Assembly (NCBI RefSeq): GCF_034366625.1
Contig: NZ_JAXMIH010000011.1
Span: 124,001 to 188,000, forward strand
Direction of reading: 5' to 3'
From: Prosthecobacter sp.
Lineage (GTDB): Bacteria > Verrucomicrobiota > Verrucomicrobiia > Verrucomicrobiales > Verrucomicrobiaceae
Length of the DNA stretch: 64,000 nucleotides
In this document: piece after piece, positions 2,212-31,844 of the stretch
Position numbering within the stretch: the stretch's first letter is position 1
Layout of the letters: each line of letters opens with the position of its first letter
The notes under the pieces: model-generated
Told to the model about the DNA's origin: nothing
The model's database searches: none
The model's input: the letters and a program-made list of their open reading frames with translations, nothing else
Position numbers and translations under genes: made by a program

Positions 2212-3402
2212 TCATGGTTTCGCGAGAGTTGCGGACGCCGCCTCCTGAAAGGCCTGCCGCATCGACGAAGCATCACCGTTCTTCAAGCCTGCGCGTTGGA
2301 TGAGCATGACGTAGATCGTCTTCTTCACCGGATCGATCCACCCCTGCGTGCCATGGGCTCCACCGTGTCCAAACGTGCCTGGACTCAGCATCGACGTGAT
2401 TCCCATCGGTTCACGCACGACTTGAAAGCCCAGTCCCATGCCCATGCCATCGGTGAACGCGGCCTTCAGATCGCCCGTTTGATTCGCCGTCATCAATTGG
2501 AGCGATTTTTCCGAGATGTAGCGCTTCCCGTCTGTCTCACCGCCGTTCAGCACCATCACATAGAGCTTCAGCAAATCCTCCGCTGTCGAGAAAAGCCCGC
2601 CCGCAGCCAGTGGCGCACGCTTTTTGTTCGAGAACGGCGGCGTGAGGTAGCGAATCGTCGTCGGCTCCAGTCCTTTGCCATCCGCCGTCGGTTTATAGCT
2701 CGTGGCGAGACGTGCGAGTTGCTTCTTGCCCGGCCAGAACGTCGTCTCGCGCATGCCCAGCGGCTTGAAGAGGCGTTTCTCCAAAAACTTCGCGTACTCT
2801 TCGCCGCTCACGACTTCCACGATGCGGCCCAGCGTGTTGATGCCCGGATTGCAGTAGGACCACTTTGATCCCGGCTCGAATTGCAACGGCGACAGCGCAT
2901 ACGTGATTACCGCTTCCTTCAAATCGAGCACATCCAGCGCATCACCATCCAGTGGCGAATTGCCCACCAGTCCGCTCGTGTGCGTGAGCAGGTCCTTGAT
3001 CGTGATCGGTCGCGCTGGCTTCACCAGCACCGTTTGCTCCGCCGTCTTCTCCTTGATCAGCATCTGGCCTTTGAACTCCGGCAGGTGCTTCATCACCGGA
3101 TCGTCGATGCTCAGCTTGCCCTCGTCCTGCAGCATCATCACCGCCAGCGCGGTGATCGGCTTGGTCATCGACGCGATCCAAAACAAGCTGTCCTTCGCCA
3201 TCGGCGTCTTCGTTTCGAGATCCTGGAGGCCGACGGCTTCCTCGCTCACGACTTTGCCATCGTGATACAGCAGCGTCACCGATCCCGAGAGCGATCCGTC
3301 CTTCACTAGAGCCTCCATGCTTTCGCGAATCGACCTCACCTCCGCGTGGAGGCTCAGGGACAGCGAAAACAGCAGGCAGGTGACGAGGCGGATGAATTTC
3401 AT
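2212..3402 (-). CDS. Secreted serine hydrolase, class C beta-lactamase/esterase family
   Basis: A 396-residue penicillin-binding-protein-like serine hydrolase (Pfam beta-lactamase family) with a signal peptide at about 1-20. The active-site SMTK motif is at 78-81, the Tyr of the second motif is in the YCN triad at 183-185, and the C-terminal HGGAHG stretch stands where KTG lies in true beta-lactamases. This combination is typical of EstB-like esterases and D-aminopeptidase-like enzymes rather than resistance enzymes. It is read first in a two-gene minus-strand unit with the alpha/beta-hydrolase. Substrate is unknown. Confidence 0.88.
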   Translation of the reverse strand: MKFIRLVTCLLFSLSLSLHAEVRSIRESMEALVKDGSLSGSVTLLYHDGKVVSEEAVGLQDLETKTPMAKDSLFWIASMTKPITALAVMMLQDEGKLSIDDPVMKHLPEFKGQMLIKEKTAEQTVLVKPARPITIKDLLTHTSGLVGNSPLDGDALDVLDLKEAVITYALSPLQFEPGSKWSYCNPGINTLGRIVEVVSGEEYAKFLEKRLFKPLGMRETTFWPGKKQLARLATSYKPTADGKGLEPTTIRYLTPPFSNKKRAPLAAGGLFSTAEDLLKLYVMVLNGGETDGKRYISEKSLQLMTANQTGDLKAAFTDGMGMGLGFQVVREPMGITSMLSPGTFGHGGAHGTQGWIDPVKKTIYVMLIQRAGLKNGDASSMRQAFQEAASATLAKP

Positions 3403-3480
3403 GAGGGTCGCAGCATACGATGAAACCCCGGTGCTCTGTCAATCTCTTGCCTTCGCGCATCAGGACGCTATATCGCCACC

Positions 3481-3858
3481 ATGTTCAAAACCGGCCAGCA
3501 GGTCGTCTGCATCGACGATCAATTCGATCCCTGGGTCTTCGACCTCTACAAGTCCCTGCCCAAGAAGGATCAAATCTACACCGTGCGTGCGCTCCGAGCC
3601 GGCCGCTCCAATCCGCAGTTCGTCGTCAATGACGATGCTGAAATCAAACTCGCGGGTGCCGAGTTTGATCTCCTTCTCCTGCTCAAAGAGCTCCACAACC
3701 CCGACGATCCGCATTCCAGTGTGAAGCAGGAACTCGGCTTCCGCTCCGAGCGTTTCGCCCCGCTTCTCGAACAAACCGAAGAAGAGGAAGAAGCCGAGCT
3801 CATCGGCGTCGGCCACGGCGAGAAGACATGGGAGCCCGAGCCTGCCTGGTCAAAGTAG
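3481..3858 (+). CDS. Conserved hypothetical protein, acidic C-terminus
   Basis: A 125-residue soluble protein not assigned to a family. The N-terminal half (KTGQQVVCIDDQF, then QIYTVRALRAG) reads like a small beta-rich domain; the C-terminal third is strongly acidic (EEEEEAELIG). No signal peptide or membrane segment is present. It stands alone, divergent from the serine hydrolase gene, with about 78 bases between the two starts. Codon use resembles its neighbours, so it is probably a real native gene. Confidence 0.65.
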   Translation: MFKTGQQVVCIDDQFDPWVFDLYKSLPKKDQIYTVRALRAGRSNPQFVVNDDAEIKLAGAEFDLLLLLKELHNPDDPHSSVKQELGFRSERFAPLLEQTEEEEEAELIGVGHGEKTWEPEPAWSK

Positions 3859-3861
3859 TCG

Positions 3862-3908
3862 AGAGCTTTAGCTCGTCAGTCTGAGTTCGTAGTTTGGGCT
3901 TAAGCCCG
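3862..3908. repeat. Short intergenic palindromes (GAGCT..AGCTC, GGGCTTAAGCCC)
   Basis: Two small palindromes lie between the hypothetical gene and moxR: GAGCTTTAGCTC at 3862-3873 and GGGCTTAAGCCC at 3897-3908. They could act as a weak terminator for the upstream gene or be remnants of a REP-like family. No T-run follows either, so the terminator role is only a guess. Confidence 0.35.
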
Positions 3909-3976
3909 TTCTGCCTTCATTGTGTTTGCGTTGAAAACTTGGCACCTTCGCCGCTGTTTGATACACCACACACCTC

Positions 3977-4993
<1,017 letters not shown>

Positions 4994-14953: not shown

Positions 14954-17368
14954 ATGTCGTTGACGGTTCTGACACTGCGCACTCAAGATGGCGAGCACCG
15001 GATTTCCTGTCCGCTGCTCTCGTCGCTCGCTCTTGGCAGCGCGCCGGAGTGTGAGATCGCGCTCGATGGCGTGGGCATCCTGCCGAAGCACTGTGTGCTG
15101 TATCGGACGGGAGAAAAAACCTTTCAGATCATTGCCACGGCGGCGGTGGCGCATTTCACGGTGAATGGCGTGACGGCAGGAGAGCTGGAGGTGGATGTGC
15201 CATTCAAGTTCGGCATCGCTGATGAGGTCATTGATGTCGATCTCGTCTCCGAAGAGGATGAAAAGCCGTCGCAGGACGCGGAGGTGATGGAAGCTGCCAC
15301 CGGAGGCGAAACGAATGATTCTGCCGCTGGTGCTCGCGCCACTCGTCGTGATTACCTGCTGCAACCGACTTCCTTGAAACCGCGCGGGGGAGGACGGGTG
15401 GCGGAGGTGATTGTGCAAACGCCACCTGAGCCTGCGGCGGTCCCGGAGCCCAAGCAAAAACTGGAAGCGCCCGCTGCGGCAGAACCCAAGCAGGACGAGG
15501 AAGAGTCATCGCCACTGCTGCTGACGGGCCTGCTGGTCTGCGGCGTGATGATCGCGGCGATCATCTACTGGCAGCAGCATCTGGATCAGGTCTCGTCATC
15601 GCCAGTCGTCGAGGTGAAGCCGGTGGTGCCAGTGACCACAGTGCCTTCCAATCTCTCGCCGGAGGCGACGATTCGCGCTTGCGAGGATCTGCTGCGTGCG
15701 GGTGCGCCGATGCTGGCCGCGCATTTGTTGATGCCGCTTGCTGAGGAAGGGCATGTGTGGGCGATGCATCAGCTTGCTCTCGCGTTGCGAGCTTCCGGTG
15801 AGTTTGGCGAGGAAGTGGTGTTTCTGCTGCAACAGGCCGTGGAAGGCGGCAGTCGTGAGGCTTTGCGTGACTTTGTGGGCGTGATCGATGATGCGGACAA
15901 TCCGGCGCGCTATGCCGAAAGCGCCTTCAAGCAGCTTCAACTGGCGGCGAAACTCGGGGAGGCATCGGCCTGGATGCCGTTGGGCGAACGGCATGAGCAC
16001 GGCAACGGCACGGTGCCGGACATCAAGCTGGCGCTGGTCGCTTATGAAAAGGCGAAGACGCTCGGCGACTCGCGTGCCGAGGCCAAGCTCTCCGCCAAAC
16101 AGGCGGCGATGGATCGTGCGGTGGCCTTCATCCGCTCATGGAACGAAGTCTCCGTGGCGACGCTGCTGGATCACGTGGCCGCGGGGCAGGGGAAGTTCTT
16201 CATGCTCGATCATGCGCCGATGGATGCGCTGTTGCGGCTGGAGGAGCAGATGCGTGTGCGCTGGCCGCTGCGGCGCATCAGCGTGGCCGCCGGAGCGAAG
16301 GCGGAGGTGGAGAACTTTGACCGCATCCAGGTTTCCCAGCCGTTCCAGTTCGAGGTGCAGCGTGGAGAGCGCATTGCGCGCGGCAAAGGCGTGCTCGCCT
16401 GCTCGGTGCAGCGTGATGAGGCCGGCAAGTGGCGCATCACGGATGCAGATGACACGATTGAACTGACCGAGCTGCTGCCTGCGAAGGAGCAGTTTGTCAG
16501 CGCCTCATCGTTGCGTGAGCTGAGGCCGGCCTTCACGCGTGAGGAGCAGCTAGAGGAAGCGCGGCTGGAGATCGTGCGTGAGATGCGTGGCATCGAGGAG
16601 ACGCAGGACTTCAAGGCGGCGCTCACCGCGCTGATGAACGCGGTGTATGAGTTTCCGCAGGAGACGTTCTGGCGGCCGTTTGCAGACACGCTGTGCGATC
16701 ACATGGCCCGGCAGTTGTTCGCCGATGGCAAATGGCTTGATGTGGCATGGGCGGAGCCGGTGCATCAGCTCGCGGAGCGCGGCAGTGTGTCCGCCATGCT
16801 GCTGGAGGGGCATCTGCTCGCGGCTGGTTATGGCTTCACACGCGACGAAAAACGCAGCACGGCACTGTATCAGCAGGCCTTCGAGACCGGCAAGCGGCGC
16901 GATGCGCGGTTCTATTATGCCGAGGCGCTGTTTCAGGGGCGTGGCGTGCCGCAGGACATTCCGAAGGCCGGTGCGTTGGTGCTGTCGTTCATGAGCCGCT
17001 CCAAGCATCCGCTGGAGGCCTATCTCGCCGCCCATCTGCTCTGGCGGAAGGCGGAGATCGATCCCTCGCTCTGGCAGCAGGTCTATGACACGCTGTCACG
17101 CGTGGCGGACAAGCATCCGCCCGCGAAGAATCTCGCCGGCATGGTGCTGTTGAATCACGGCCAGACGACGAAGGAGCGCAAAACCGGTTTCGCCGCCATC
17201 AAGGCCGCCGCTGAGGCAGGTGTGGTCGAGGCGATGAAGACGCTCGCGAGCTGTTATCAGGACGGCATCGGCTGCGAGAAGGATTTTCTCATTGCGACGA
17301 CCTGGAAGCAAAAGGCCGCCGTGACGCCGCCGCTGAGGAAGAGGCATTACACGGAGTTTGAGGAGTGA
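14954..17368 (+). CDS. FHA-like domain, membrane-anchored Sel1-repeat protein
   Basis: An 804-residue bitopic membrane protein. Residues 3-98 resemble a forkhead-associated (phosphothreonine-binding) domain: LGSAPECEIAL at 27-37, then ILPKHCVLY at 42-50. A Pro/Ala/Glu-rich linker leads to a transmembrane helix at about 187-206. The rest is alpha-helical with Sel1/TPR-like repeats, for instance ALFQGRGVPQDIPKAGALVL in the second half and a final SCYQDGIGCEKDF unit. The FHA-like part is cytoplasmic and the repeat region most likely periplasmic. It is the last gene of the Bat-like operon and could link phospho-signalling to envelope assembly; that is inference. Confidence 0.8.
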   Translation: MSLTVLTLRTQDGEHRISCPLLSSLALGSAPECEIALDGVGILPKHCVLYRTGEKTFQIIATAAVAHFTVNGVTAGELEVDVPFKFGIADEVIDVDLVSEEDEKPSQDAEVMEAATGGETNDSAAGARATRRDYLLQPTSLKPRGGGRVAEVIVQTPPEPAAVPEPKQKLEAPAAAEPKQDEEESSPLLLTGLLVCGVMIAAIIYWQQHLDQVSSSPVVEVKPVVPVTTVPSNLSPEATIRACEDLLRAGAPMLAAHLLMPLAEEGHVWAMHQLALALRASGEFGEEVVFLLQQAVEGGSREALRDFVGVIDDADNPARYAESAFKQLQLAAKLGEASAWMPLGERHEHGNGTVPDIKLALVAYEKAKTLGDSRAEAKLSAKQAAMDRAVAFIRSWNEVSVATLLDHVAAGQGKFFMLDHAPMDALLRLEEQMRVRWPLRRISVAAGAKAEVENFDRIQVSQPFQFEVQRGERIARGKGVLACSVQRDEAGKWRITDADDTIELTELLPAKEQFVSASSLRELRPAFTREEQLEEARLEIVREMRGIEETQDFKAALTALMNAVYEFPQETFWRPFADTLCDHMARQLFADGKWLDVAWAEPVHQLAERGSVSAMLLEGHLLAAGYGFTRDEKRSTALYQQAFETGKRRDARFYYAEALFQGRGVPQDIPKAGALVLSFMSRSKHPLEAYLAAHLLWRKAEIDPSLWQQVYDTLSRVADKHPPAKNLAGMVLLNHGQTTKERKTGFAAIKAAAEAGVVEAMKTLASCYQDGIGCEKDFLIATTWKQKAAVTPPLRKRHYTEFEE

Positions 17369-17376
17369 GCCGTTTT

Positions 17377-17430
17377 GTAGTTCCGGCTTTAGCCGGTGCA
17401 TTGAGTCGGACCGGCTAAAGCCGGAACTAC
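17377..17430. terminator. Perfect 21-bp inverted repeat between convergent genes
   Basis: The arms GTAGTTCCGGCTTTAGCCGG(T) at 17377-17397 and their exact complement at 17410-17430 enclose a 12-base loop. It lies eight bases after the FHA-Sel1 stop and 21 bases before the stop of the convergent 885-residue gene. It is well placed as a bidirectional terminator, though there is no strong T-run. It may also be a member of a dispersed repeat family. Confidence 0.65.
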
Positions 17431-17451: not shown

Positions 17452-20109
17452 CTACTCACCCACACGCAACACGTCACAGGTGATGAAGATGGCCTGGAGG
17501 ATGTCCTCCTTCTCGAACTCGGGTTTGCCGGTGGGTTTGTAGAGGGAGAGGAGGCGAACGGTGCCGTCGGGCATGGTGATACCGGTGTTGACCTTGGCGG
17601 CATGGTAATCGGTGAGCGGGAATTCAAGTTTCCGGCCCTGCGTGTCGAGAATGTGCTCGCGATGCTCGAAGGGCGCGGCGGTGTGGAACTCGGGGGCGAT
17701 GGTGAGTTCGATTGTTTGTCCGTCCGCACCGATTATGGCTTCGAGTTCGACCCTGTAGCCGACGTTGCGGGTCTCGGTGATGATTTCGGGAGAGCCTTCC
17801 TTGCTGATGCGCACGTCAGCGAGCGCGGTGTGTTCTGCGCCTTGTTGCGTGATGGCGCGGACGCCGGATTTGGTCTCGATGCGGTTCGTGCCGAGGGATT
17901 GCGCGTCGCCTTTCTTCACGGCAGCGAGGAGTTCGTCGAGCTCGGCACGGTGGTTGCTTTTGCCGGCGGATTGAGCCGTGAGGCGGCGTAGCAACGGGCC
18001 TGGGGCCTGGAGGACGTGGGTGGTGAAGATGATAGTCGGGGAAGGCTTCACCAAGATGTCATCAACGAACGTTGCCACCAAGGCGAGATTCTCGTTGGTG
18101 TTTCTAACGATCATTGTGTTCGTTGATGGCTTGTAGTCCGCACTGGCCCCATCAGGAAATTCAACCCCCTGTGCCTCAAGCACGCTTCTGGCCGTGATCC
18201 TTGGTGCCCCAAGTCCGGAAGAGAGGAAATCTGGTGGAACCCGGAATCGTTTGATGTTCCAAGCCTTGGGATCGACCACAGGCATGGTTTTTCCCGCAGA
18301 GTTGTGGGTAACAGGGGGCTTTGGAATGTGCGGCACCACAGCACAGTGCAAGAACGTGGCCCAGAGTTTGCCTTCGGTATCACGGCCTGTCGGGTGATGG
18401 AGGGAGATGAGTTTGGTGCTGCCTTTGGTGATGCTGAGGCCGTTGGTGGTTTTGAGGACATGGAAGTCGGTGGCGGTCATGGCGAAACGCTGGCCGGAGG
18501 CGGGATCGCGAAAGTGAGCGCCGCGTGTCTCGGGAGGGGCGGGATGGAGTTCGTGGCTGAAATTGAGCTCCACGGTGCGGCCGTCCGCGCTGATGACGGG
18601 CTCGACCTCGAAGATGGAGCCGACTTTGCGCGTCTCGAAGGTGATCTCGGGCTGGTTTTGGGCGTTGAGGTCGAAACTGGAGATGAAGACATGCTCGCGC
18701 ACGGATTCGTGTGAGGCGCGGAGGCCGGATTTGGTTTCGATGAAGAGGGAGTTGATGTAACGGGCCTCTCCGCGTGCGATGGCGGCTTCCGCTGCGGTGA
18801 ACATGGCGGTGTCGTCAGCGCCTGTGGCGGTGGATTGCCGGGAAAGGTCACGCAGGAGTGTTTCGGGTGCCTCGATGGAGTGCAGGGTGAAAGCGATGGT
18901 TTTCGGTGCGACGGATTCGGCGTGGGAGATCAGAGCGCCAATGGCCTCGACCATGGCGGAGGTGTTGGTGACATGGAGATGGTCGCCTTTTTGTTCCAGC
19001 GAGGCTCCGGGAGGGAAGGGGACGCCTTGTTGTTTCTCTAGCCACTCACGCAAAGGCTGCGAGGTCGTTTCCATGAGGGATTCGAGCAATCCGGGCGGTG
19101 CGTGCAAGGTGATCGAAACCATGCCCTGTGGTGCGGGCATCTGCGGTGGTTCTGTTTTTGGCAATGGTAGAACACGTCGGATGGTGCTGGTGAGGAAGGC
19201 GGCCCAGAGGACATCAGCCTTTTCATCGGCGAGGCCGACGGGTTTGGTGACGCCGATGAGCTTCGTGGCTCCGCTGGTGCTGACGAGCGAGGTGATGAAC
19301 TCGGCCCCGGCAGTCACGGAGAAGGGAAACTCGGCATCGCGTCCGGTGAGCGGCTCGGTGACGGTTAGCTGACGCAGGTGCGGTGTGACGGGATGAAACT
19401 TGATGACAATGCTATTTTCGATGGTGATGCCGTCGGTTCTCAGCGTGGGCTCGACTTCGAGCGTGAGGCCGAGCGGACGCATGTCCCAGGAGGCGGTGGC
19501 GCGGCTTTTCGAGTCGAGATTGAGGTCGGTGGCGTGAACGTGCTCGCGCACGGCGGTGGTGGTGCTGTGGGTGCCGGACTTGGTTTCGAGGAAGGCATCC
19601 GCGACGACGCGGACGTTGGAGCCTGGATTTTTCGCGTAGTCGAGCAGGGTGGTGAGCTCTTTTCGGGCGTCGGCGGTGTGTGATGCGGCCGCGTTGGCTG
19701 TGCGAATGAGTTCTCCCGGACCTTCGAGGATGATGAGTTGATGGGCGAGGGTGGCGGGAAAGAAAGCCGGATTCGGGTCAACGAATGCCTCGACTAAATC
19801 GAGATTGGGCTGTGTGTTGGTGACAATGAGTAGGCCGGTGGCGGGATTGAAGGCGGCGCTGGAACCTTCGGGAAAGGTGATGCCTTGAGCTTCGAGGACT
19901 TGTTTGGCCGATTGACGCGGAATTTTGCCGTCGGCAGGGGTGGGCTGGCCAGCGGCGAAAGGATCAGCGGGAGAATCCGGATCGGGCTTGCCGATGGATA
20001 GGAAATCGGGCGGGACGATGAAGCTGCGGGTGACAATCTTTGGCTTCTCCGCATGCAGCGCTGCGGTGAAGACAAGGAGGAGCGCCGAGAGGCGGCAGAG
20101 GCCGTTCAT
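17452..20109 (-). CDS. Exported protein with three tandem secretin-related modules
   Basis: An 885-residue protein with a signal peptide (1-20) followed by three related modules of about 270-290 residues (about 27-315, 330-597 and 617-885). Modules 1 and 3 begin with PPDFLS (33-38, 625-630) and LEAQG (72-76, 644-648), then a secretin N1-like strand-helix-strand. All three carry an ETKSG motif (175-179, 458-462, 745-749) and a (V/I)xxDG(x)T(I/V)E strand. These motifs also occur in the secretin at 29202-31844 (PPDFLS, ILEAQG, TKSGTR, GADGNTIELTLAPE). The secretin's conserved C-terminal gate signature is absent. It therefore looks like a periplasmic or outer-membrane paralogue made from triplicated secretin pieces. 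The function is unknown. Confidence 0.75.
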   Translation of the reverse strand: MNGLCRLSALLLVFTAALHAEKPKIVTRSFIVPPDFLSIGKPDPDSPADPFAAGQPTPADGKIPRQSAKQVLEAQGITFPEGSSAAFNPATGLLIVTNTQPNLDLVEAFVDPNPAFFPATLAHQLIILEGPGELIRTANAAASHTADARKELTTLLDYAKNPGSNVRVVADAFLETKSGTHSTTTAVREHVHATDLNLDSKSRATASWDMRPLGLTLEVEPTLRTDGITIENSIVIKFHPVTPHLRQLTVTEPLTGRDAEFPFSVTAGAEFITSLVSTSGATKLIGVTKPVGLADEKADVLWAAFLTSTIRRVLPLPKTEPPQMPAPQGMVSITLHAPPGLLESLMETTSQPLREWLEKQQGVPFPPGASLEQKGDHLHVTNTSAMVEAIGALISHAESVAPKTIAFTLHSIEAPETLLRDLSRQSTATGADDTAMFTAAEAAIARGEARYINSLFIETKSGLRASHESVREHVFISSFDLNAQNQPEITFETRKVGSIFEVEPVISADGRTVELNFSHELHPAPPETRGAHFRDPASGQRFAMTATDFHVLKTTNGLSITKGSTKLISLHHPTGRDTEGKLWATFLHCAVVPHIPKPPVTHNSAGKTMPVVDPKAWNIKRFRVPPDFLSSGLGAPRITARSVLEAQGVEFPDGASADYKPSTNTMIVRNTNENLALVATFVDDILVKPSPTIIFTTHVLQAPGPLLRRLTAQSAGKSNHRAELDELLAAVKKGDAQSLGTNRIETKSGVRAITQQGAEHTALADVRISKEGSPEIITETRNVGYRVELEAIIGADGQTIELTIAPEFHTAAPFEHREHILDTQGRKLEFPLTDYHAAKVNTGITMPDGTVRLLSLYKPTGKPEFEKEDILQAIFITCDVLRVGE

Positions 20110-20270: not shown

Positions 20271-21428
20271 TCAGAGGGTCTGATGAATGCGCCCCAGCGC
20301 CATCAAGATGTAGCTGGTGGTGAGGACGGGGTCGCTTTCCATCCAGCGGCCTTCGGAGTTGGCCCAGGAGCCGTCGCCTTTTTGGAGGTTGAGGAGCTTT
20401 TGGGTGATGTCGGCGCGCCAGTCGATGAGCTTGCCGTCTTTGGTCTTGATGAAGTCGATCTGGGCGATGCTGAGGGCCTTGCTGAGGGTGTGGTAGTAGT
20501 AGTAGAGGCCCTGGGCGCCGAGACCGGGGTTTTCGTCGGCGCTGTAGTTGGCGCTGATCCATTCGATGACGGCTTTGACGCGGGGGTCGCTTTTATCGAG
20601 GCCGGCGTAGATGAAGCTGAGGAGGCCGGCGTAGCTGATGCTGCCGTAGCTGCGGAGGGAGATGGTGCCGTCAGGGTTTTCGACCTTGGCACCGCGGGTT
20701 TCGGTGGGGTTGTAGATGAAGCCGCCGGCGTCTTTGGGGTCTTTGCTGACCCAGCTTGATTTGTTGCTCTCGGGGCGGTTCTGGCAGCGCTGGATGAAGT
20801 CGATGGCGGCACCGAAGTTGAGCTGGGGTTCGCCTTTGGCGGCGTCGCCTTTATCAGCGAGGAGGGACTGGGCGTAATAGAGGGCTTCGAGGGCGAAGGT
20901 GGTGTTGGAGAGATCGGCGTGGGTGGCTTTTTCCTCGCCGTAGCCGATGCCGCCGTCGGTGGGGTTGTCCTGCTTGCCTTTTTCGTCGAGGTCGAGCTGG
21001 CGGGTGACGAGGTAGCGGCGGGCCTTGAGCATGACCTCCTCGTTTTCGGGCTTGTTGTTCAACAGAAGCGCGGTGAGGGCGATGGCGGTGTTGTAGGTGG
21101 CGCGGGCCTTGATGGAGATGGAGCCGTCGGGCTTGGCGTTGCTGATGAGGTAGCGGGTGGCTTTTTCGACCTCGGCAGGGACGGGATCGCCGGGCTTGCG
21201 GTTGGGGTCGAGCATGAACGCGGTCATGGCCAGACCGGTGATGGCAACGGGTTCGGCTTCGCCCCACTGGCCGGTTTGCTGGTTTTGTTTGGCGCGGAGG
21301 AAGTTGAGGCCGCGCTCGACGCCGAGACGGAGTTCCTGCTTGAGGGACTCATGGCGCGGAGCCTGCGTGGCGGCCTGGGGGAAGGCCGAGGCGGTCGCGA
21401 GGATGAGGAGGAAGGCTGGAAGTTTCAT
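20271..21428 (-). CDS. Secreted prenyltransferase/squalene-cyclase-fold protein
   Basis: A 385-residue protein with a signal peptide (1-22) and alpha/alpha-toroid repeats typical of the squalene-hopene cyclase/prenyltransferase superfamily. Visible units include GLNFLRAKQNQQTGQWGE near 39-56, AVEWISANY-type repeats in the middle and DGSWANSEGRWMESDPVLTT near the C-terminus. The catalytic DxDD of true cyclases is not evident. With a signal peptide this is more likely a periplasmic repeat-scaffold protein than a terpene cyclase. Such proteins are common in Planctomycetes and Verrucomicrobia; the function is unknown. Confidence 0.78.
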   Translation of the reverse strand: MKLPAFLLILATASAFPQAATQAPRHESLKQELRLGVERGLNFLRAKQNQQTGQWGEAEPVAITGLAMTAFMLDPNRKPGDPVPAEVEKATRYLISNAKPDGSISIKARATYNTAIALTALLLNNKPENEEVMLKARRYLVTRQLDLDEKGKQDNPTDGGIGYGEEKATHADLSNTTFALEALYYAQSLLADKGDAAKGEPQLNFGAAIDFIQRCQNRPESNKSSWVSKDPKDAGGFIYNPTETRGAKVENPDGTISLRSYGSISYAGLLSFIYAGLDKSDPRVKAVIEWISANYSADENPGLGAQGLYYYYHTLSKALSIAQIDFIKTKDGKLIDWRADITQKLLNLQKGDGSWANSEGRWMESDPVLTTSYILMALGRIHQTL

Positions 21429-24609: not shown

Positions 24610-25242
24610 ATGAAACTCTTCGCCTTGAGTATTGCCCCCCTCTTCATCGCATCCGCGCTTTATGCCCAGGCTCCTGCGGTCCAGGAGACGCTCCCAGCAG
24701 TCAAGGTGGACATCAAGCGCGTGACGGTCACTGAACAGCCGACGCCGCAGTTTACCGCGTCCAATGTGAAAGAAAAGCGCTGGCGTCCCAAGAACTGGAT
24801 TGAGGTGGATGTGGAGTTTGACATCAAGGTTCCTGTAGATGCCGGAGGCAGAAATGGATCTTATTCCGCCATGCAGTTGAATGTTTACCTGGCCCTCCAG
24901 CACATGACCAAAGACGGCAAGCGCGAAGTCATCACAGGCACGCTTGATCTGTTAAACATTCCGGCCGGGGAAACCTGCCATGCGCTGGCCTACGTCTCTC
25001 CCGCCACGATGAGATCGATTTTTCTCAAAGACAACGTGACCGCTTCCACTGACATTCAGGGCTGGGGTGTTGAATTCATCGCCGAAGGTAAGCGCATTGC
25101 CGGGGATTCCAGCGTGGGCAAGTCTCCCTGGTGGGAGAAGACAGAGAACTTTGCGATGCTCCAAGGATCGCTCCTCAACAAACTGCAAACTCCCTTCGCT
25201 CCACTCTGGGGAGATTATGATGTGCCCGTCAAAGCAAAATAA
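24610..25242 (+). CDS. Amuc_1102-like secreted pilus-locus protein
   Basis: A 210-residue protein with a signal peptide (cleavage near LYAQA at 16-20) and a predicted all-beta domain, for example RWRPKNWIEVDVEFDIKVP. Its place as first gene of a five-gene set followed by PilM-, PilO-, PilP-like and secretin genes matches the Akkermansia locus Amuc_1102 to Amuc_1098, where Amuc_1102 is the corresponding small secreted protein. By analogy it is a periplasmic or surface component of the type IV pilus-like machine. The assignment rests on gene order and general features, not on an alignment. Confidence 0.68.
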   Translation: MKLFALSIAPLFIASALYAQAPAVQETLPAVKVDIKRVTVTEQPTPQFTASNVKEKRWRPKNWIEVDVEFDIKVPVDAGGRNGSYSAMQLNVYLALQHMTKDGKREVITGTLDLLNIPAGETCHALAYVSPATMRSIFLKDNVTASTDIQGWGVEFIAEGKRIAGDSSVGKSPWWEKTENFAMLQGSLLNKLQTPFAPLWGDYDVPVKAK

Positions 25243-25304
25243 AAAGCAGGCATGATGCCCTCTCTCTCCCGATCTCCTGATCAGCGAACATAACAATTTC
25301 CAGC

Positions 25305-27053
25305 ATGGCAGACCCAAATAGCATTGCAGTCATCAATCTCGGCTCCCAGCGTGTCGGAGGAGCGGTCTTCGGCAGGACACCGGGAGGAGATCTCATTCTG
25401 AAGCGGTATGAGTTTGTGGAGATGGACGGCGATCCCTCCGTGGATGTCAGCCGCCTGCCGCAGCTCAAAGTGGCGCTCAGCGAACTCGTCGCCAAACTGA
25501 AGATCAGGGGGCATAAGACTTGGTGCACTGTGCCTGGACACCCGGTGTTTAGCCGTTTCGTCAAACTGCCTCCCGTGCATGGGGACAAGCTGGCGCAGAT
25601 TGTCGAGTTTGAAGCGCGTCAAAATGTGCCGTGGCAGCTGGATGAGGTGTCGTGGGACTATGAGGTCGTTACCAAATCAGACTTGGGTGAAGTTGAAGTG
25701 GTGCTGGCAGCCATGAAGTGCGAGCCGCTGAATGAGATGCATCAGGAGGTTGTCTCCTGCGGGATCAAGGTGGTGGGGGTCGATGTCGGTCCGCTGGCGC
25801 TCTACAATGCCTTCCGCTATAGCTATCCTGATGTGGACGAGCCTGCCTTGGTCGTTGATTTGGGAGCGCGCTCAACCAACTTGGTGTTTGTCGACGGGGA
25901 GCGATTCTTCACCCGTAACCTGCTTGTTGGCGGTGCTGCGGTCACCAATGCGATTGCGAAGGAGTTTAATATTTCCTTCGCCGAGGCGGAGCGGCAGAAG
26001 TGCTCCCAGGGTTTCGTTGCCCTTGGCGGAGCGGTGGAAGACCACCCTGATGAAGGTGTGAACGCCATGTCCAAGGTGATGCGTAATTCGATGACGCGAT
26101 TGCACGCTGAAATCATGCGCACGATCACCTTCTACCGCAGCCAGCAGGGCGGCAGTGCTCCGAAGCGGGTCTTTCTTGCGGGCGGTGGTTCGGCGGCGGG
26201 CTACATCGCCGAGTTTTTCGCGGAAAAATTGAAGCTGCCTGTGGAGCTCTTTAACGGCCTGCGTGGTGTGCAGCCGGATCGCGGTGTGAATGGCGAAGCC
26301 GCCAAGGTTGATGCCCCGGCGCTCGGGGAATTGGTCGGGCTGGCGCTCCGTGGCATGGGGGCCTGTCCATGTGAGATTGAGTTGATTCCTGACGCCTTGG
26401 CCGCCGCGCGTGATGCCGCGCGGCGTGCGCCGGCCCTGATCCTCGCAGGTCTTTGTATTTTGGGTGCGTTGGGAGCCTCCATTTTCTGGTTCAAGAGTGC
26501 CAGCGAGGCAATCCAGGAACGTGCAGCCGCCATGCAGGCCGACGGCTCGCGTCTGAGCAAGCTGGCCAATGACATCCGCCAGTTGGAGGTCAGGCAGGAA
26601 GAGCTGCGTGTGCGCAGCTCGCAACTCGAACAGGCGGTCATCGACCGCTCTTGGTGGGCGCGGCTGCTCAATGACCTCAATCAGCAGTTCGACAATGATC
26701 TGATCTGGCTGACAGTCATCGAACTGATCAAGGATGACAAGCCTGTTACCGCACCCCTGTGGGGTGGGAATAGCGATGACAAATCCAAGTCTGAAGCCAC
26801 AAAGCCGGGGATGCCAGCAGCTCCGGTCTATAAACTGCGTCTTCAGGGTTTGTATCGTCGAAACACCGAGGGCGAACAAAAAGTGGTCTATGATTTTGCA
26901 GCCAAACTGGCCAAAATGGAGGCTTTCGTCATGAAAGATTTTGAAACCAAGCGTGACGAATACGTGAAGGTTGACAGTGGCGTCGAGGAAGACCGCTACG
27001 CCTATCATTTCGAGATTAAAATGCCGCTGAGCAAGCCTCTGCAATTCAAATAA
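25305..27053 (+). CDS. PilM-PilN fusion protein (Amuc_1101-like)
   Basis: A 582-residue inner-membrane protein of the type IV pilus alignment complex. Residues 1-360 are an actin-like ATPase domain of the PilM/FtsA type (AVINLGSQRVGGAVFG at 8-23, VVDLGARSTNLVFVDG near 185-200, FLAGGGSAAGYIAEFF near 288-303). A transmembrane helix at about 375-393, a coiled coil, and a PilN-like periplasmic domain (SWWARLLNDLNQQ ... LRLQGLYRR ... YDFAAKL) follow. In most bacteria PilM and PilN are separate proteins, so this is a fusion joining the cytoplasmic ring to its membrane partner. Six bases separate it from the PilO-like gene. Confidence 0.82.
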   Translation: MADPNSIAVINLGSQRVGGAVFGRTPGGDLILKRYEFVEMDGDPSVDVSRLPQLKVALSELVAKLKIRGHKTWCTVPGHPVFSRFVKLPPVHGDKLAQIVEFEARQNVPWQLDEVSWDYEVVTKSDLGEVEVVLAAMKCEPLNEMHQEVVSCGIKVVGVDVGPLALYNAFRYSYPDVDEPALVVDLGARSTNLVFVDGERFFTRNLLVGGAAVTNAIAKEFNISFAEAERQKCSQGFVALGGAVEDHPDEGVNAMSKVMRNSMTRLHAEIMRTITFYRSQQGGSAPKRVFLAGGGSAAGYIAEFFAEKLKLPVELFNGLRGVQPDRGVNGEAAKVDAPALGELVGLALRGMGACPCEIELIPDALAAARDAARRAPALILAGLCILGALGASIFWFKSASEAIQERAAAMQADGSRLSKLANDIRQLEVRQEELRVRSSQLEQAVIDRSWWARLLNDLNQQFDNDLIWLTVIELIKDDKPVTAPLWGGNSDDKSKSEATKPGMPAAPVYKLRLQGLYRRNTEGEQKVVYDFAAKLAKMEAFVMKDFETKRDEYVKVDSGVEEDRYAYHFEIKMPLSKPLQFK

Positions 27054-27058
27054 AGACC

Positions 27059-28057
27059 ATGGACTGGATTCGTGAAAACAAACCGCTTGCCGCCATTCTT
27101 GGCGTCATCCTCGCAGGCTCACTGGCCTTGGGCTACCTGCTGTTTGATGCATGGAGCAATTATGCCGAAACAAGAGACGCTTACCTCAGCATGGGCAGCC
27201 AGGTGGCTGGTTTGAAGGGATCGCGTCTGGCCCCCACCGAAGACAACGTGAAGGCCAAGCAGGCGCTGGTGGAGGAGTATGCGGTGAACGTGAACAGGCT
27301 TGGGGGGGCACTGCTCATTTTGCAGCCCCCGGTGCAGCCGACCAAGGACATCGAATTCCAGGCCAAGCTCAAAACCAAGATCGCGGAAGCACGCAAAGCG
27401 GCGACAATGTCCAAAATGTCACTCCCGCCTGAGTTTGCATTTGGATTCGATGATTACACCGCCGGATTGCCGAAATCCGCCGCCGCCGCCGCCGAGCTTG
27501 CCAGCTTTCTGGATGCCATGGATGAATTAGTCCGGCTATTTATGCAGTGTGGGGTTCAATCGGTTGATCTCCTGGAGCGCTCCAAACTCGCCATCGAACA
27601 GGACCAAGCGGCTTCGTCGCCGCAGCGGAACAGCAGAACTGGAGTGCAGCCCCAGCAGCAGATGGCTTCCGCTATTCTCGAAAAACGGCAGATTTCGGTG
27701 ATTTTGACCTTGGACCAGGGGCCGCTGCAGCTTTTGATCAGCCGTCTTGCGAATCCTTCAGACATGCCGTTCTTCACCAGTCTGCGGCTGCTGCGCATCG
27801 AGAATGAACGTCAGGACGGGCCTTTGAAATCGGATGTTCGTCTCCCAGAGGTGGTGCCCCCTAATCCTGGTGGAGGAGGTGAAGCAGCAGCACCTGCTCC
27901 TGCGGCATCGGATGAAATCAAGCCTCCTCCTCCGGCCACTGCTGACTCTGTGCCTGTCATCGGAAAAGAACGATTGAAGGTTAGAATGGAGATCGATTTG
28001 GTAAAGTTTTTGGACGCCGCCAAAGGTGTCGTTGCCCAGCCACCTGTTGGGCGTTGA
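27059..28057 (+). CDS. PilO-like pilus protein (Amuc_1100-like)
   Basis: A 332-residue bitopic membrane protein: short cytoplasmic N-terminus, transmembrane helix at about 11-31 (LAAILGVILAGSLALGYLLF), a coiled coil to about residue 115, then a periplasmic alpha/beta region and a Pro/Ala-rich stretch near 265-300. This PilO-like layout and its position third in the operon equal Amuc_1100 of Akkermansia, a pilus-associated envelope protein. It probably pairs with the PilN part of the preceding protein. Identification is by context and topology. Confidence 0.72.
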   Translation: MDWIRENKPLAAILGVILAGSLALGYLLFDAWSNYAETRDAYLSMGSQVAGLKGSRLAPTEDNVKAKQALVEEYAVNVNRLGGALLILQPPVQPTKDIEFQAKLKTKIAEARKAATMSKMSLPPEFAFGFDDYTAGLPKSAAAAAELASFLDAMDELVRLFMQCGVQSVDLLERSKLAIEQDQAASSPQRNSRTGVQPQQQMASAILEKRQISVILTLDQGPLQLLISRLANPSDMPFFTSLRLLRIENERQDGPLKSDVRLPEVVPPNPGGGGEAAAPAPAASDEIKPPPPATADSVPVIGKERLKVRMEIDLVKFLDAAKGVVAQPPVGR

Positions 28058-28098
28058 ATATTTTTGACCCCCTTTAATACCGCAAGCCCTCACGCACC

Positions 28099-29100
28099 AT
28101 GCAGAACAGCCAGGGAAACTACGAAAAAATAATCCTGACCATCTCGTCCCTTCTCGCCATCGGGGTGGCGGTCTGGCTCGTCCTCCAATCCCAAGGGTTT
28201 GAGGAGAGTTTGGCGCTGACGCAGACAACGTCCAAGAATGACCTCAGTGCGCCTAATAATCAGGCTGTTGTTGGGGCCATTGAAACCATCAAGAAGAAGT
28301 ATTCATGGGTTTCGCCCGTGAAAGGGGGCAAGGCCGTTCCTTTGAACAAGTCGGTGCTGCTCGTCATGAAAGGCGGCCAATTGTTCGACCTCCTGCTGCC
28401 GGAACCGAAGCTCCGTGAGCCCATGACCAACATTTTTCTCACCGGTGACTTGACCAAAACCCCACCAGAATCCCAGCTTCCGGATATTTTCTCCCCCAAT
28501 GTGGGCGATTTGGATGCAGATGACGATGGCTTCTCAAACTTGGAAGAATTCAACGCCAAAACCAATCCCCGTGATGCGAATTCAATGCCCCCGCTTACCA
28601 ACAAGTTGTTTTTGCGCCAGCGCATCAGTCATGATTATATTTTAAAAATGGTCAGTGGGGATGGGGCGACCTTCCAAATTCAACGCCTGAAGCCCGAGCC
28701 CAAAAGCAGCAAGTTTGCGGCATCGAACGAAGGTTTCGGTTTTGAAAGGGGAGTAGTTCGTTTCAAGATTATCTCGTCCAAAAAAGACACCATTCAACAC
28801 CCGACACTTGGGCCGATGGAGGTTTTCGTCCTGAAAATTCTCGATCTGTCCACAAACAAGGAGTTTGATCTCACCCAAGGCAAGGAAATTAATCTTGCTG
28901 AATATGAGGCTGAATTGGAGTTCCGATGGAAAAAGCGACAGATGGTGCCTGGCACCGTCAAAGAGGGCAAATCCTTCCAGCTTCCGGGCCTTGGCAAATC
29001 CTATTACATCCTAAAGCTGGAAGAAACCAAGGCCGTCATCGCGCCTCTCGGCAACGATGGCAAACCCACGCCAGAAACCGTTGAAATTCAGCAGGGATAA
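28099..29100 (+). CDS. Amuc_1099-like pilus-locus membrane protein
   Basis: A 333-residue protein with one N-terminal transmembrane helix (about 11-28, IILTISSLLAIGVAVWLVL). A periplasmic domain follows, including the calcium-loop-like DLDADDDGFSNLEEFNAKTN (about 135-154; thrombospondin-3/EF-hand-like DxDxDG). Between the PilO-like and secretin genes this is where PilP-type linkers normally lie, and it corresponds to Amuc_1099 in gene order. A bridging role between inner membrane and secretin is plausible but inferred. Confidence 0.7.
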   Translation: MQNSQGNYEKIILTISSLLAIGVAVWLVLQSQGFEESLALTQTTSKNDLSAPNNQAVVGAIETIKKKYSWVSPVKGGKAVPLNKSVLLVMKGGQLFDLLLPEPKLREPMTNIFLTGDLTKTPPESQLPDIFSPNVGDLDADDDGFSNLEEFNAKTNPRDANSMPPLTNKLFLRQRISHDYILKMVSGDGATFQIQRLKPEPKSSKFAASNEGFGFERGVVRFKIISSKKDTIQHPTLGPMEVFVLKILDLSTNKEFDLTQGKEINLAEYEAELEFRWKKRQMVPGTVKEGKSFQLPGLGKSYYILKLEETKAVIAPLGNDGKPTPETVEIQQG

Positions 29101-29201: not shown

Positions 29202-31844
29202 ATGACCCATCCCTCCCGTCTGGTGCTTAACCTGTCCCTCCTTGCTTTGACTGCGATTTCGCCGCAAATCATGGCTCAAAGTTCCGTTTCAGGAATGGCC
29301 AACCGCGAAATCGCCCGCCGTTACGCGCGCATTGAGGATGCCCGAACCGCCATGGATCGTGGAGATAAACTTTTCAGTGAGGGGGATTATGATGGCGCTC
29401 TCGGTTCATACAAGGCGGCTATTGATGCCCTTCCCAATGCCCCACTGACCCGTGACTGGCTCGAACTTGCCCAACTCAAGCATGCTGATTGCAGCGTGGT
29501 TGTTGCGCGCGAACGAGCCAAAGAAGGCAAATATGACGAAGCACGTCAATTGCTAGAAGGTGCAATCGTGTCCATTCCTGGGCATAAAGATGCTCTGGTG
29601 TTCCTGAAGCAATTGGATGACCCTGATCGTTGGCCGCCTGCTCTCACCGCACAGCATGTGGAAAATGTTACCGTTGTAAAGAAGGGGCTTCTCATAGCAA
29701 ACAGTTCGGTAGAAATTGGCAACTACGACACAGCCATTTCGCAGTATCAAGATGTTCTTCGTGTGGATCCGTACAATAGTGCCGCTCGCCGTGGCATGGA
29801 AAATGCCGAGCGCAAACGCATGGAGTACTACAAAGCAGCATACGATCATCAGCGCGCCAAGATGCTGGCCCAGGTGGATGAAGCATGGGAAGACAAAGTG
29901 CCGGTGCAGGGGGCGCAAGTGGCATTTGATTATGGTATGGGGCGCAGTCCTGGGTCATTTCTGACAGAGAAAATGAACAAAATAATCTTTCCGACAGTGC
30001 AATTCCAAGGGGCCACGATTGATGAGGCTATTGAGTATCTTCGAGTCAAAAGCCGAGACTTGGACACCTTTACGGATGCTTCCGGCGTCAAAGGGGTGAA
30101 TATTATCCTTCGCACGGGCGATGCTCCAAGTAATGCCTCGATCAGTCTTGACTTGAAAGACGTCCCGATGTCTGAGGCATTACGTTATGTCACCGAACTG
30201 GCACAAATGAAATACAAGGTTGAGGCGCATGCCGTTTTGGTGGTGCCCCTGTCTGAAGATGCTAGCCAACAATATACGAGGACATATCGAGTGCCTCCTG
30301 ATTTCCTCAGCATTGGCGGTGGCGATGGTGGTGGAGCAGCTGCTCCATCTGCGCCGGCTGACCCCTTCGCCGCAGGCGGTGGGGCCGCTCCAGCCGGTGG
30401 TGGTCTTATTGCAAGAAAAACTGCCAAGCAGATTCTCGAAGCTCAAGGAATTACTTTTTCAGATGGATCGTCCGCTAGTTTTAACCCGGCAACGTCGCAG
30501 TTGGTGGTTAGAAACACGCAGCCCAACCTTGATTTGGTCGAAGCATTTGTGGATACGATCACCAAGAATGCTCCCAAGATGGTCGTCATCACCTCCAAGT
30601 TTGTTGAAGTGACGCAAAAGAACACTGAAGAGCTGGGTTTTGATTGGTTGCTTGGCAGTGTGGGCATGAATGGGAACAATGTGTTCCTTGGAGGTGGGGC
30701 TACAGGTACTGGCAATGCGTACTCTCCGGCCAACTATCCGTTTACAAGCAACTACGTAAGCCCCGCTCTTCTAACAGGCACTCCTCTGACAACGGTATTC
30801 CCCGCGATTCCTATTGTGGGAGCATTTGCAGGTCCCGTTCCGAGCGGGGCAGGGCTGCCTCCAACAGGGGCAACTCCAGTCTTCCCGACGGGGGCTGGAC
30901 CCATTTCGTCTGGATTGCGATCTGGCAATTACGCAGTCAACAATAACAGTATTGACAACCTGTTGACGACTGGTGCAACCACAGGCACTGCAAACGTTGC
31001 GCCTGGTATTTTTTCCGCAGCGGGTATTTTTTCCGACCCGCAGTTTCAGATGGTGCTTCGCGGATTGAGCCAGAAAAAAGGAGTGGATTTGATGAGCGCT
31101 CCAAGTGTGACTACAAAGAGCGGCACTCGTGCAACAATGGAGGTGACTCGTGAATTCATTTATCCAACTGAATTTGATCCGCCTCAGCTTCCGCAGGGAG
31201 GGGGGGGGAATCTCACCCTTGGTGGTGGTGGTGGTACACAGATCGCTACTCCTACAACACCGACCGCATTTGAAATGCGACAAACGGGAGTTAGGCTCGA
31301 AGCTGAACCTACCGTTGGGGCTGATGGAAACACCATAGAACTTACCTTGGCTCCTGAAGTTGTGGAATTCGATGGTTTTATCAATTATGGCTCGCCGATC
31401 TTATCCCCCTCCAGCCAGTCAGTTCTGCCAATTCAATTGACTGCTGGGATTCCTCCTGGAAACACCTCTTATATACCAATTAGTCAGCCAGAGCGCCTGA
31501 TTACTCCCAACGTGATCAATCAGCCCGTTTTCTCGGTTCGTAAAGTCACCACTGGGGTTTCTATCTGGGATGGCCAGACGGTAGCGTTGGGAGGACTGAT
31601 TCGTGAAGATATACAGGATGTGGAAGATAAAATCCCTCTTCTTGGCGATCTGCCTCTTATTGGGCGCCTGTTCAAATCTGAGTCCGAACAACACTTTAAG
31701 CGTAACCTAATGATATTCGTTACCGCTCATTTAATTGATCCATCAGGCCAAAAGGTGAAAAACAATCAACCGGCCGCAGGTGCAGCCATAGCAGGTCCCG
31801 GCTCAGTGGGAACACTTTTGCCATCAGTAACGCCTGCCCCGTAG
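29202..31844 (+). CDS. Secretin of a type IV pilus/type II secretion-like system (Amuc_1098-like)
   Basis: An 880-residue outer-membrane secretin. It has a signal peptide (1-26), TPR-like helices at about 45-240, an STN/N0-like domain near 265-350, and a PPDFLS segment near 365. An N1-type domain with ILEAQG near 411 follows, then the core domain with TKSGTR near 639. The diagnostic C-terminal signature GQTVALGGLIRED ... KIPLLGDLPLIGRLFKS closes near 790-825. Long Gly/Pro/Thr-rich inserts at about 370-400 and 485-600 look like flexible or surface loops. It forms the exit pore for the pilus whose inner-membrane parts are encoded just upstream. The 101 bases before it contain no evident gene and could hold a separate promoter. 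Confidence 0.9.
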   Translation: MTHPSRLVLNLSLLALTAISPQIMAQSSVSGMANREIARRYARIEDARTAMDRGDKLFSEGDYDGALGSYKAAIDALPNAPLTRDWLELAQLKHADCSVVVARERAKEGKYDEARQLLEGAIVSIPGHKDALVFLKQLDDPDRWPPALTAQHVENVTVVKKGLLIANSSVEIGNYDTAISQYQDVLRVDPYNSAARRGMENAERKRMEYYKAAYDHQRAKMLAQVDEAWEDKVPVQGAQVAFDYGMGRSPGSFLTEKMNKIIFPTVQFQGATIDEAIEYLRVKSRDLDTFTDASGVKGVNIILRTGDAPSNASISLDLKDVPMSEALRYVTELAQMKYKVEAHAVLVVPLSEDASQQYTRTYRVPPDFLSIGGGDGGGAAAPSAPADPFAAGGGAAPAGGGLIARKTAKQILEAQGITFSDGSSASFNPATSQLVVRNTQPNLDLVEAFVDTITKNAPKMVVITSKFVEVTQKNTEELGFDWLLGSVGMNGNNVFLGGGATGTGNAYSPANYPFTSNYVSPALLTGTPLTTVFPAIPIVGAFAGPVPSGAGLPPTGATPVFPTGAGPISSGLRSGNYAVNNNSIDNLLTTGATTGTANVAPGIFSAAGIFSDPQFQMVLRGLSQKKGVDLMSAPSVTTKSGTRATMEVTREFIYPTEFDPPQLPQGGGGNLTLGGGGGTQIATPTTPTAFEMRQTGVRLEAEPTVGADGNTIELTLAPEVVEFDGFINYGSPILSPSSQSVLPIQLTAGIPPGNTSYIPISQPERLITPNVINQPVFSVRKVTTGVSIWDGQTVALGGLIREDIQDVEDKIPLLGDLPLIGRLFKSESEQHFKRNLMIFVTAHLIDPSGQKVKNNQPAAGAAIAGPGSVGTLLPSVTPAP

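Follow-up and report, generated by a model that had tools for sequence, protein, structure and literature searches.

Secretins are outer-membrane channels. Pilotins are small lipoproteins with non-secretin folds, those of type IV pili having a TPR fold, and TsaP has LysM and FlgT-like domains. The secretin family that concerns us here, Amuc_1098 (NF042912), is identified in a published account (PMC4960237) as the PilQ of Akkermansia muciniphila. Within a 64,000-nucleotide stretch of DNA from Prosthecobacter sp. (the window), we analyzed a gene for an exported protein made of three tandem secretin-related modules. Sequence and structural comparisons trace this protein to the type IV pilus secretin of its own order, and both its ancestry and its fold are well established. 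Outside subscription papers, a literature search turned up no publication describing pore-less or tandem secretin proteins in this bacterial group.

The module protein and its parent secretin

The open reading frame that fills positions 17452-20109 of the window encodes 885 amino acids on the minus strand, a strand that the sequence-only reading of this DNA had not named. A signal peptide-like N-terminus (about residues 1-20; 20050-20109, minus strand) was identified from sequence, hydrophobicity (hydrophobic 11-mer score 2.37) and a helix at residues 2-18 of the predicted structure, and this Sec-type signal sequence bears out the export proposed earlier. Three modules of 298, 294 and 273 residues follow on the same strand: module 1 (residues 21-318; 19156-20049), whose N-domain is the most secretin-like part, module 2 (residues 319-612; 18274-19155), whose N-domain is the most diverged, and module 3 (residues 613-885; 17455-18273). 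Their tandem relationship, as originally read, is upheld by pairwise identities of 30-34% (modules 1 and 2, 30%, E 7.5e-28; 1 and 3, 33%, E 4.3e-41; 2 and 3, 34%, E 1.1e-42). Of the motifs said to be common to all three, ETKSG is indeed present throughout, whereas PPDFLS and LEAQG are limited to modules 1 and 3, being replaced in module 2 by PPGLLE and LEKQQG. The ADG strand reads TDGITIE, SADGRTVEL and GADGQTIEL in the three modules.

The module gene lies 9 kb from the gene of its parent type, a full-length Amuc_1098-family type IV pilus secretin of 880 amino acids (29202-31844, plus strand; NF042912 995.5 bits, cut-off 750), which is preceded in the pilus operon by Amuc_1102-, 1101 (PilM)-, 1100- and 1099-family genes, all over their cut-offs (24610-29100, plus strand). 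Direct comparison with this secretin confirms the kinship of all three modules, with best segments of 60% identity over 93 residues for module 1, 38% over 106 for module 3 and 31% over 85 for module 2. The NCBIfam Amuc_1098 model NF042912 matches six stretches of the 885-residue protein (192 bits, E 1.4e-56), which excludes chance resemblance, although the score falls under the equivalog cut-off of 750 bits. The PF00263 match covers two stretches and passes its gathering cut-off by a narrow margin (28.2 against 27.5 bits). A profile of 60 modules aligns colinearly with residues 356-720 of the secretin in hhalign (probability 99.8, E 5.2e-29), and scores against that profile are inflated by construction for the modules that built it. 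In some pilus-locus paralogues the N0-N1 block is 47-53% identical to the secretin over 208-218 residues. A phmmer search of the PDB with the whole protein returned nothing useful.

It had also been proposed that the protein might be a pilotin-like partner, and pilotins do resemble it, as first proposed, in being exported secretin helpers. A simple pattern search found no lipobox in the 885-residue protein, and a Pfam scan at E<=1 returned Secretin and Secretin_N only, with no TPR and no LysM/FlgT-like match. The absent lipobox and TPR match led us to reject pilotin identity, the secretin fold is a further difference from pilotins, and we found no positive evidence for a pilotin-like role. Signal sequences were found across the module family, and some single-module relatives carry a lipobox-like signal by the simple pattern (L125, 331-1437; L126, 3524-4804; L053, 6150-7424), so that parts of the family may be lipoproteins.

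Predicted fold and the segments kept and lost

To compare the modules with known structures, the whole protein was modeled by AlphaFold together with 20 family members (pLDDT 83.4, pTM 0.77). The 32 best PDB matches of this model, down to E 7.6e-4, are secretins; its best VIA score of Z 8.7 is weak for an 885-residue chain. Module 3, modeled alone with 60 module rows, gave a secretin fold with pLDDT 93.8 and pTM 0.82, and Foldseek aligned it with 40 PDB entries at E<=1e-3, every one a secretin, and then with nothing better than E 0.051. By VIA, this model aligns with GspD 9k8v (Z 14.3, 201 residues, rmsd 6.1) and with pIV 7ofh (Z 14.3, 193 of 231 residues, rmsd 6.1), the best non-secretin row reaching Z 6.1; with rmsd values this high, the resemblance is to be read at the level of fold and topology. 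The models thereby show each module as a predicted secretin N-domain (N3-like) and a secretin core. With structural comparison and hhalign both finding a match to secretin domains, the view of the protein as a secretin relative, which was to fall if no such match appeared, stands.

Module 3 is markedly shorter than the window secretin in several intervals: from strand 1 to the helix (146 residues in the secretin, 21 in the module), from KSG to the hinge-position Gly (55 and 35), from ADG to the next Gly (74 and 44) and from DG to the last strand (44 and 23). The C-terminal signature of the window secretin (P-[LIV]-LG-x-[LIV]-P), which reads DKIPLLGDLPLIGRLF, is missing as previously noted: it occurs in none of 49 ORF records that contain at least two full modules, a set that includes some genes fetched twice. 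We take this LLGD-P-LIG-type segment to be that of PROSITE PS00875. The description of the protein as gateless is not established, however. Positions 112-200 of the module profile align with PulD 420-508 with no net length change, in a weak match (E 0.0074), and the module 3 model has hairpin strands at 139-156 and 162-181 in the Gate 1 position. Since this hairpin is kept, a secretin without its membrane part is a better description than a gateless one: what is lost is the outer-barrel/lip segment and the LLGD-P-LIG segment, not the gate proper. Residue G172 of module 3 is the only one that is invariant both in 60 modules and in 43 modules, and by the PulD alignment it would sit at the second Gate 1 hinge glycine. 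The protein is a secretin by descent and fold and is not one by the outer-barrel/lip and C-terminal signature features tested. A working secretin, with outer-membrane insertion of the modules and a pore built from the inner barrel alone, would agree with inner-barrel-type hairpins that are kept in length and fold, but the reduction of the outer-barrel/lip segment from 146 to 21 residues and the loss of the signature segment make it very improbable.

These comparisons show how the protein arose. The pilus secretin lost its TPR/N0 part, its outer-barrel/lip segment and its C-terminal signature segment, after which three such shortened units were joined in one chain. Because the membrane-crossing parts are gone, the exported protein would stay soluble in the periplasm. 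The explanation to which we lean, at somewhat less than even confidence, is that of a periplasmic, membrane-free secretin offshoot that has kept the subunit-pairing sheets and would use them to bind or brace the pilus secretin. Its modules could pair side by side through secretin-type sheets, giving a pre-joined arc of three subunits; alternatively, the module sheets may lie against the pilus secretin and brace, cap or tune its periplasmic part. In either arrangement the protein would be an accessory part and not one that the pilus machine requires.

Distribution, neighborhoods and divergence of module genes

The protein is not a single unusual case: it belongs to a set of 68 distinct ORFs in which one or more full modules are present and the C-terminal signature is absent. 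These were collected across 97 loci (77 plus 20, with another 20 loci left out and incomplete ORFs counted in) and comprise 30 three-module, 23 two-module and 15 one-module proteins. Their distribution, across two families of the order, is patchy, their evolution is fast, and the three-module form is confined almost wholly to one genus. Searched with the three-module C-terminal profile at E<=1e-10, that genus gives matches in only 21 of 48 genomes (19 of 33 good assemblies), an incomplete presence that counts against a partner of the pilus secretin. The 20 named loci with a three-module C-terminus are labeled Prosthecobacter, Verrucomicrobiaceae, Verrucomicrobiales or Verrucomicrobia MAGs, with one labeled Akkermansia muciniphila, and a three-module protein outside the genus is found in G058 (L129). 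In the order and phylum searches, 6 to 8 candidates were scored per genome. Across the order, 89 of 288 genomes match the module profile at E<=1e-25, the weaker ones seeming to be ordinary secretins. At E<=1e-34, a cut-off set by eye where genomes with apparently only ordinary secretins match at 1e-20 to 1e-31, 56 of 288 genomes remain by a count taken straight from the listing, and these belong to two families only (34 to that of the window, 22 to family f3). A draw from the phylum gave 5 of 387 genomes at E<=1e-30, three from the window's family and two weak ones from other families. The Amuc_1098 family was found in all 28 module genomes tested at E<=1e-40, 25 of them over its cut-off; this co-occurrence says little, as the secretin appears to be nearly universal in the order.

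The proposed phylogeny of modules and secretins was built as a quick tree of 167 rows, in which 57 of 164 inner branches are open. A single branch with support 99 divides the modules from 16 secretins. Within the three-module proteins, modules 1, 2 and 3 cluster largely by position (5, 4 and 2 changes), so the triplication predates most of the paralogue expansion. One relative has three single-module genes in tandem (L124, 2843-6131), an unfused counterpart of the triple protein. Other relatives carry giant ORFs of 1881 to 3261 residues (L056, 3445-13230; L050, 3677-12745; L057, 4972-13794; L055, 8343-13988) with secretin-like N1 stretches and no secretin core; the one scanned, that of L056, has STN and TPR matches too. 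These giant ORFs are a second line of secretin-derived proteins.

The window gene order runs from an FHA-like/Sel1-repeat protein gene (14954-17368, plus strand; Sel1 over its Pfam cut-off, FHA below), convergent with the module gene and kept in relatives, through the module gene to its upstream same-strand neighbor, an exported squalene-hopene-cyclase-like protein (20271-21428, minus strand; PF13243 28.3 bits) that stays with it in relatives, then an unknown gene, a periplasmic-binding protein and the pilus operon. As far as the stretches reach, this order also occurs in L062, L064, L065, L066, L067, L072 and L073, and, with the window counted, 8 pilus loci have a module gene flanked by the Sel1 and cyclase-like genes. 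Across six loci the cyclase-like protein keeps 82-85% identity. A perfect GTAG-led palindrome, GTAGTTCCGGCTTTAGCCGG, lies with its inverted copy at 17377-17430, in the space separating the two convergent genes (fold -49.8 kcal/mol, z -7.9); it has 45 near copies in the genome at <=3 mismatches, against 11 for a reversed control, and is presumably a REP-type element.

Beyond this block, the neighborhoods vary. In eight other genus loci (L132-L136, L138, L139 and L141), the stretch read contains the pilus operon but lacks a module gene. In a near relative, G032 (L137), an MscS-type channel gene with a cNMP-binding domain (3032-4579) occupies the exact place of the module gene, with no module trace. 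Most module copies are located off the pilus operon and have unrelated genes as neighbors; a search for a constant partner of these dispersed copies gave none, the neighbors including carbamoyl-phosphate synthase, BipA, MetRS, racemase, PSCyt/DUF1501 and sulfatase genes. Both the G032 replacement and the location of most copies off the operon stand against binding to the pilus secretin. A possible, if doubtful, alternative is exaptation of the modules as a general periplasmic or surface scaffold of one, two or three sheets in a row with no tie to that secretin, operon proximity then being a leftover of local duplication. Such a scaffold is favored by the dispersal without a constant partner, by the occurrence of one- and two-module proteins in other parts of the order and by the fast evolution of module genes; it is disfavored by the gene block conserved beside the pilus operon at 8 loci and by a module-1 N-domain that stays secretin-like at the pilus locus. 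Under the secretin-bracing explanation that we prefer, the pilus-locus copies, with their secretin-like N-domain, would contact the pilus secretin, whereas dispersed copies would have drifted and may serve other complexes.

This N-domain contrast was quantified as 36-55% identity to secretins in 17 pilus-locus rows and 16-41% in 50 other rows; the pilus-locus label was assigned by us, counts one G014 gene twice and, for G014 and G010, whose contigs stop short of the operon, rests on neighbors or tandem layout. One- and two-module proteins are among the other 50 rows, so the contrast is partly phylogenetic. We considered and rejected a recent conversion of module 1 by the neighboring secretin gene, as the N-domain DNA of the window's module 1 has its closest counterparts in other module genes (73% over 257 bases in L040 and 83% over 122 bases in L079, against 70% over 132 bases in the secretin of the window). 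An N-domain tree, with few columns and weak support, likewise does not nest module 1 among the secretins. In the comparison with the nearest relative, dS rises from 0.64 over the gene as a whole to 1.51 in the module-1 N-domain, which makes it likely that module genes exchange sequence with one another.

Over its full length, the window module gene differs from its nearest relative with dN 0.21 and dS 0.64 (dN/dS about 0.33), and three other module-gene pairs give about 0.31, 0.36 and 0.38, in comparison with about 0.11 for a secretin pair (L067-L062; 0.07/0.61). Module genes are therefore under purifying selection and evolve at about three times the rate of the secretin, which is odd for a machine part. 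Tandem copies are present in L065 (three) and L067 (two), L073 has one intact and one frame-broken copy, and broken copies comprise the frame-broken ones of G001 (L073) and L084 and an internally deleted one in G012 (L140). Such copies might indicate a decaying duplicate without function, but all 885 codons of the window copy are intact, its dN/dS is that of a constrained gene and many positions are invariant across 20 proteins of the family, which makes decay highly improbable. A decoy or regulator that co-assembles with or imitates the secretin, blocking or diverting a ligand such as a phage, incoming DNA or a competitor's factor, would explain the duplication, loss and fast change of module genes, and the tandem and broken copies, the replacement at the locus and the threefold dN/dS are in its favor. 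Opposed to it are a dN/dS well under 1, the absence of a known ligand, the absence of any PADLOC defence match and the absence of matches to the module protein among viral contigs, plasmids and phages (in PHROGs, only the pIV family, E 0.026), and we consider it quite unlikely. These same collections gave no match that would indicate a phage or plasmid origin of the gene.

Relation to known secretin systems

A periplasmic ring around a pilus secretin has a structural precedent. TsaP forms a heptamer on the PilQ 14-mer (PDB 6ve2), a periplasmic ring with fewer chains than the secretin, although its domains are unrelated to those of the 885-residue protein. Four or five pre-joined triplets of the module protein could close into a membrane-free secretin ring, a periplasmic barrel of 12 to 15 units coaxial with the pilus secretin. 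We regard this ring as unlikely; were it true, a secretin core without its outer barrel would act as a soluble gated collar, and family members with one, two or three modules would represent that ring divided into segments of different size.

A family that keeps the secretin core without membrane parts would show that this core can live off the membrane, and tandem membrane-free cores would help to separate the ring-assembly part of secretins from the insertion part. The module gene also adds a variable component beside an Amuc_1098-1102-type pilus locus, which is studied in Akkermansia for its host effects. The Amuc_1098 secretin is like the modules in its sequence order, its PPDFLS/LEAQG N-domain, its ETKSG and ADG strands and its presence at the same locus, whereas the 885-residue protein lacks its TPR/N0 part, lip/outer-barrel segment and C-terminal signature and carries three units per chain. 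More widely among PF00263 proteins, pIV, GspD, PilQ and InvG form rings in the outer membrane whose chains each hold a single secretin unit, in contrast to modules that are joined and missing their membrane parts, and they nevertheless have in common with the modules an N3-like domain, a secretin core and a hairpin at the Gate 1 position.
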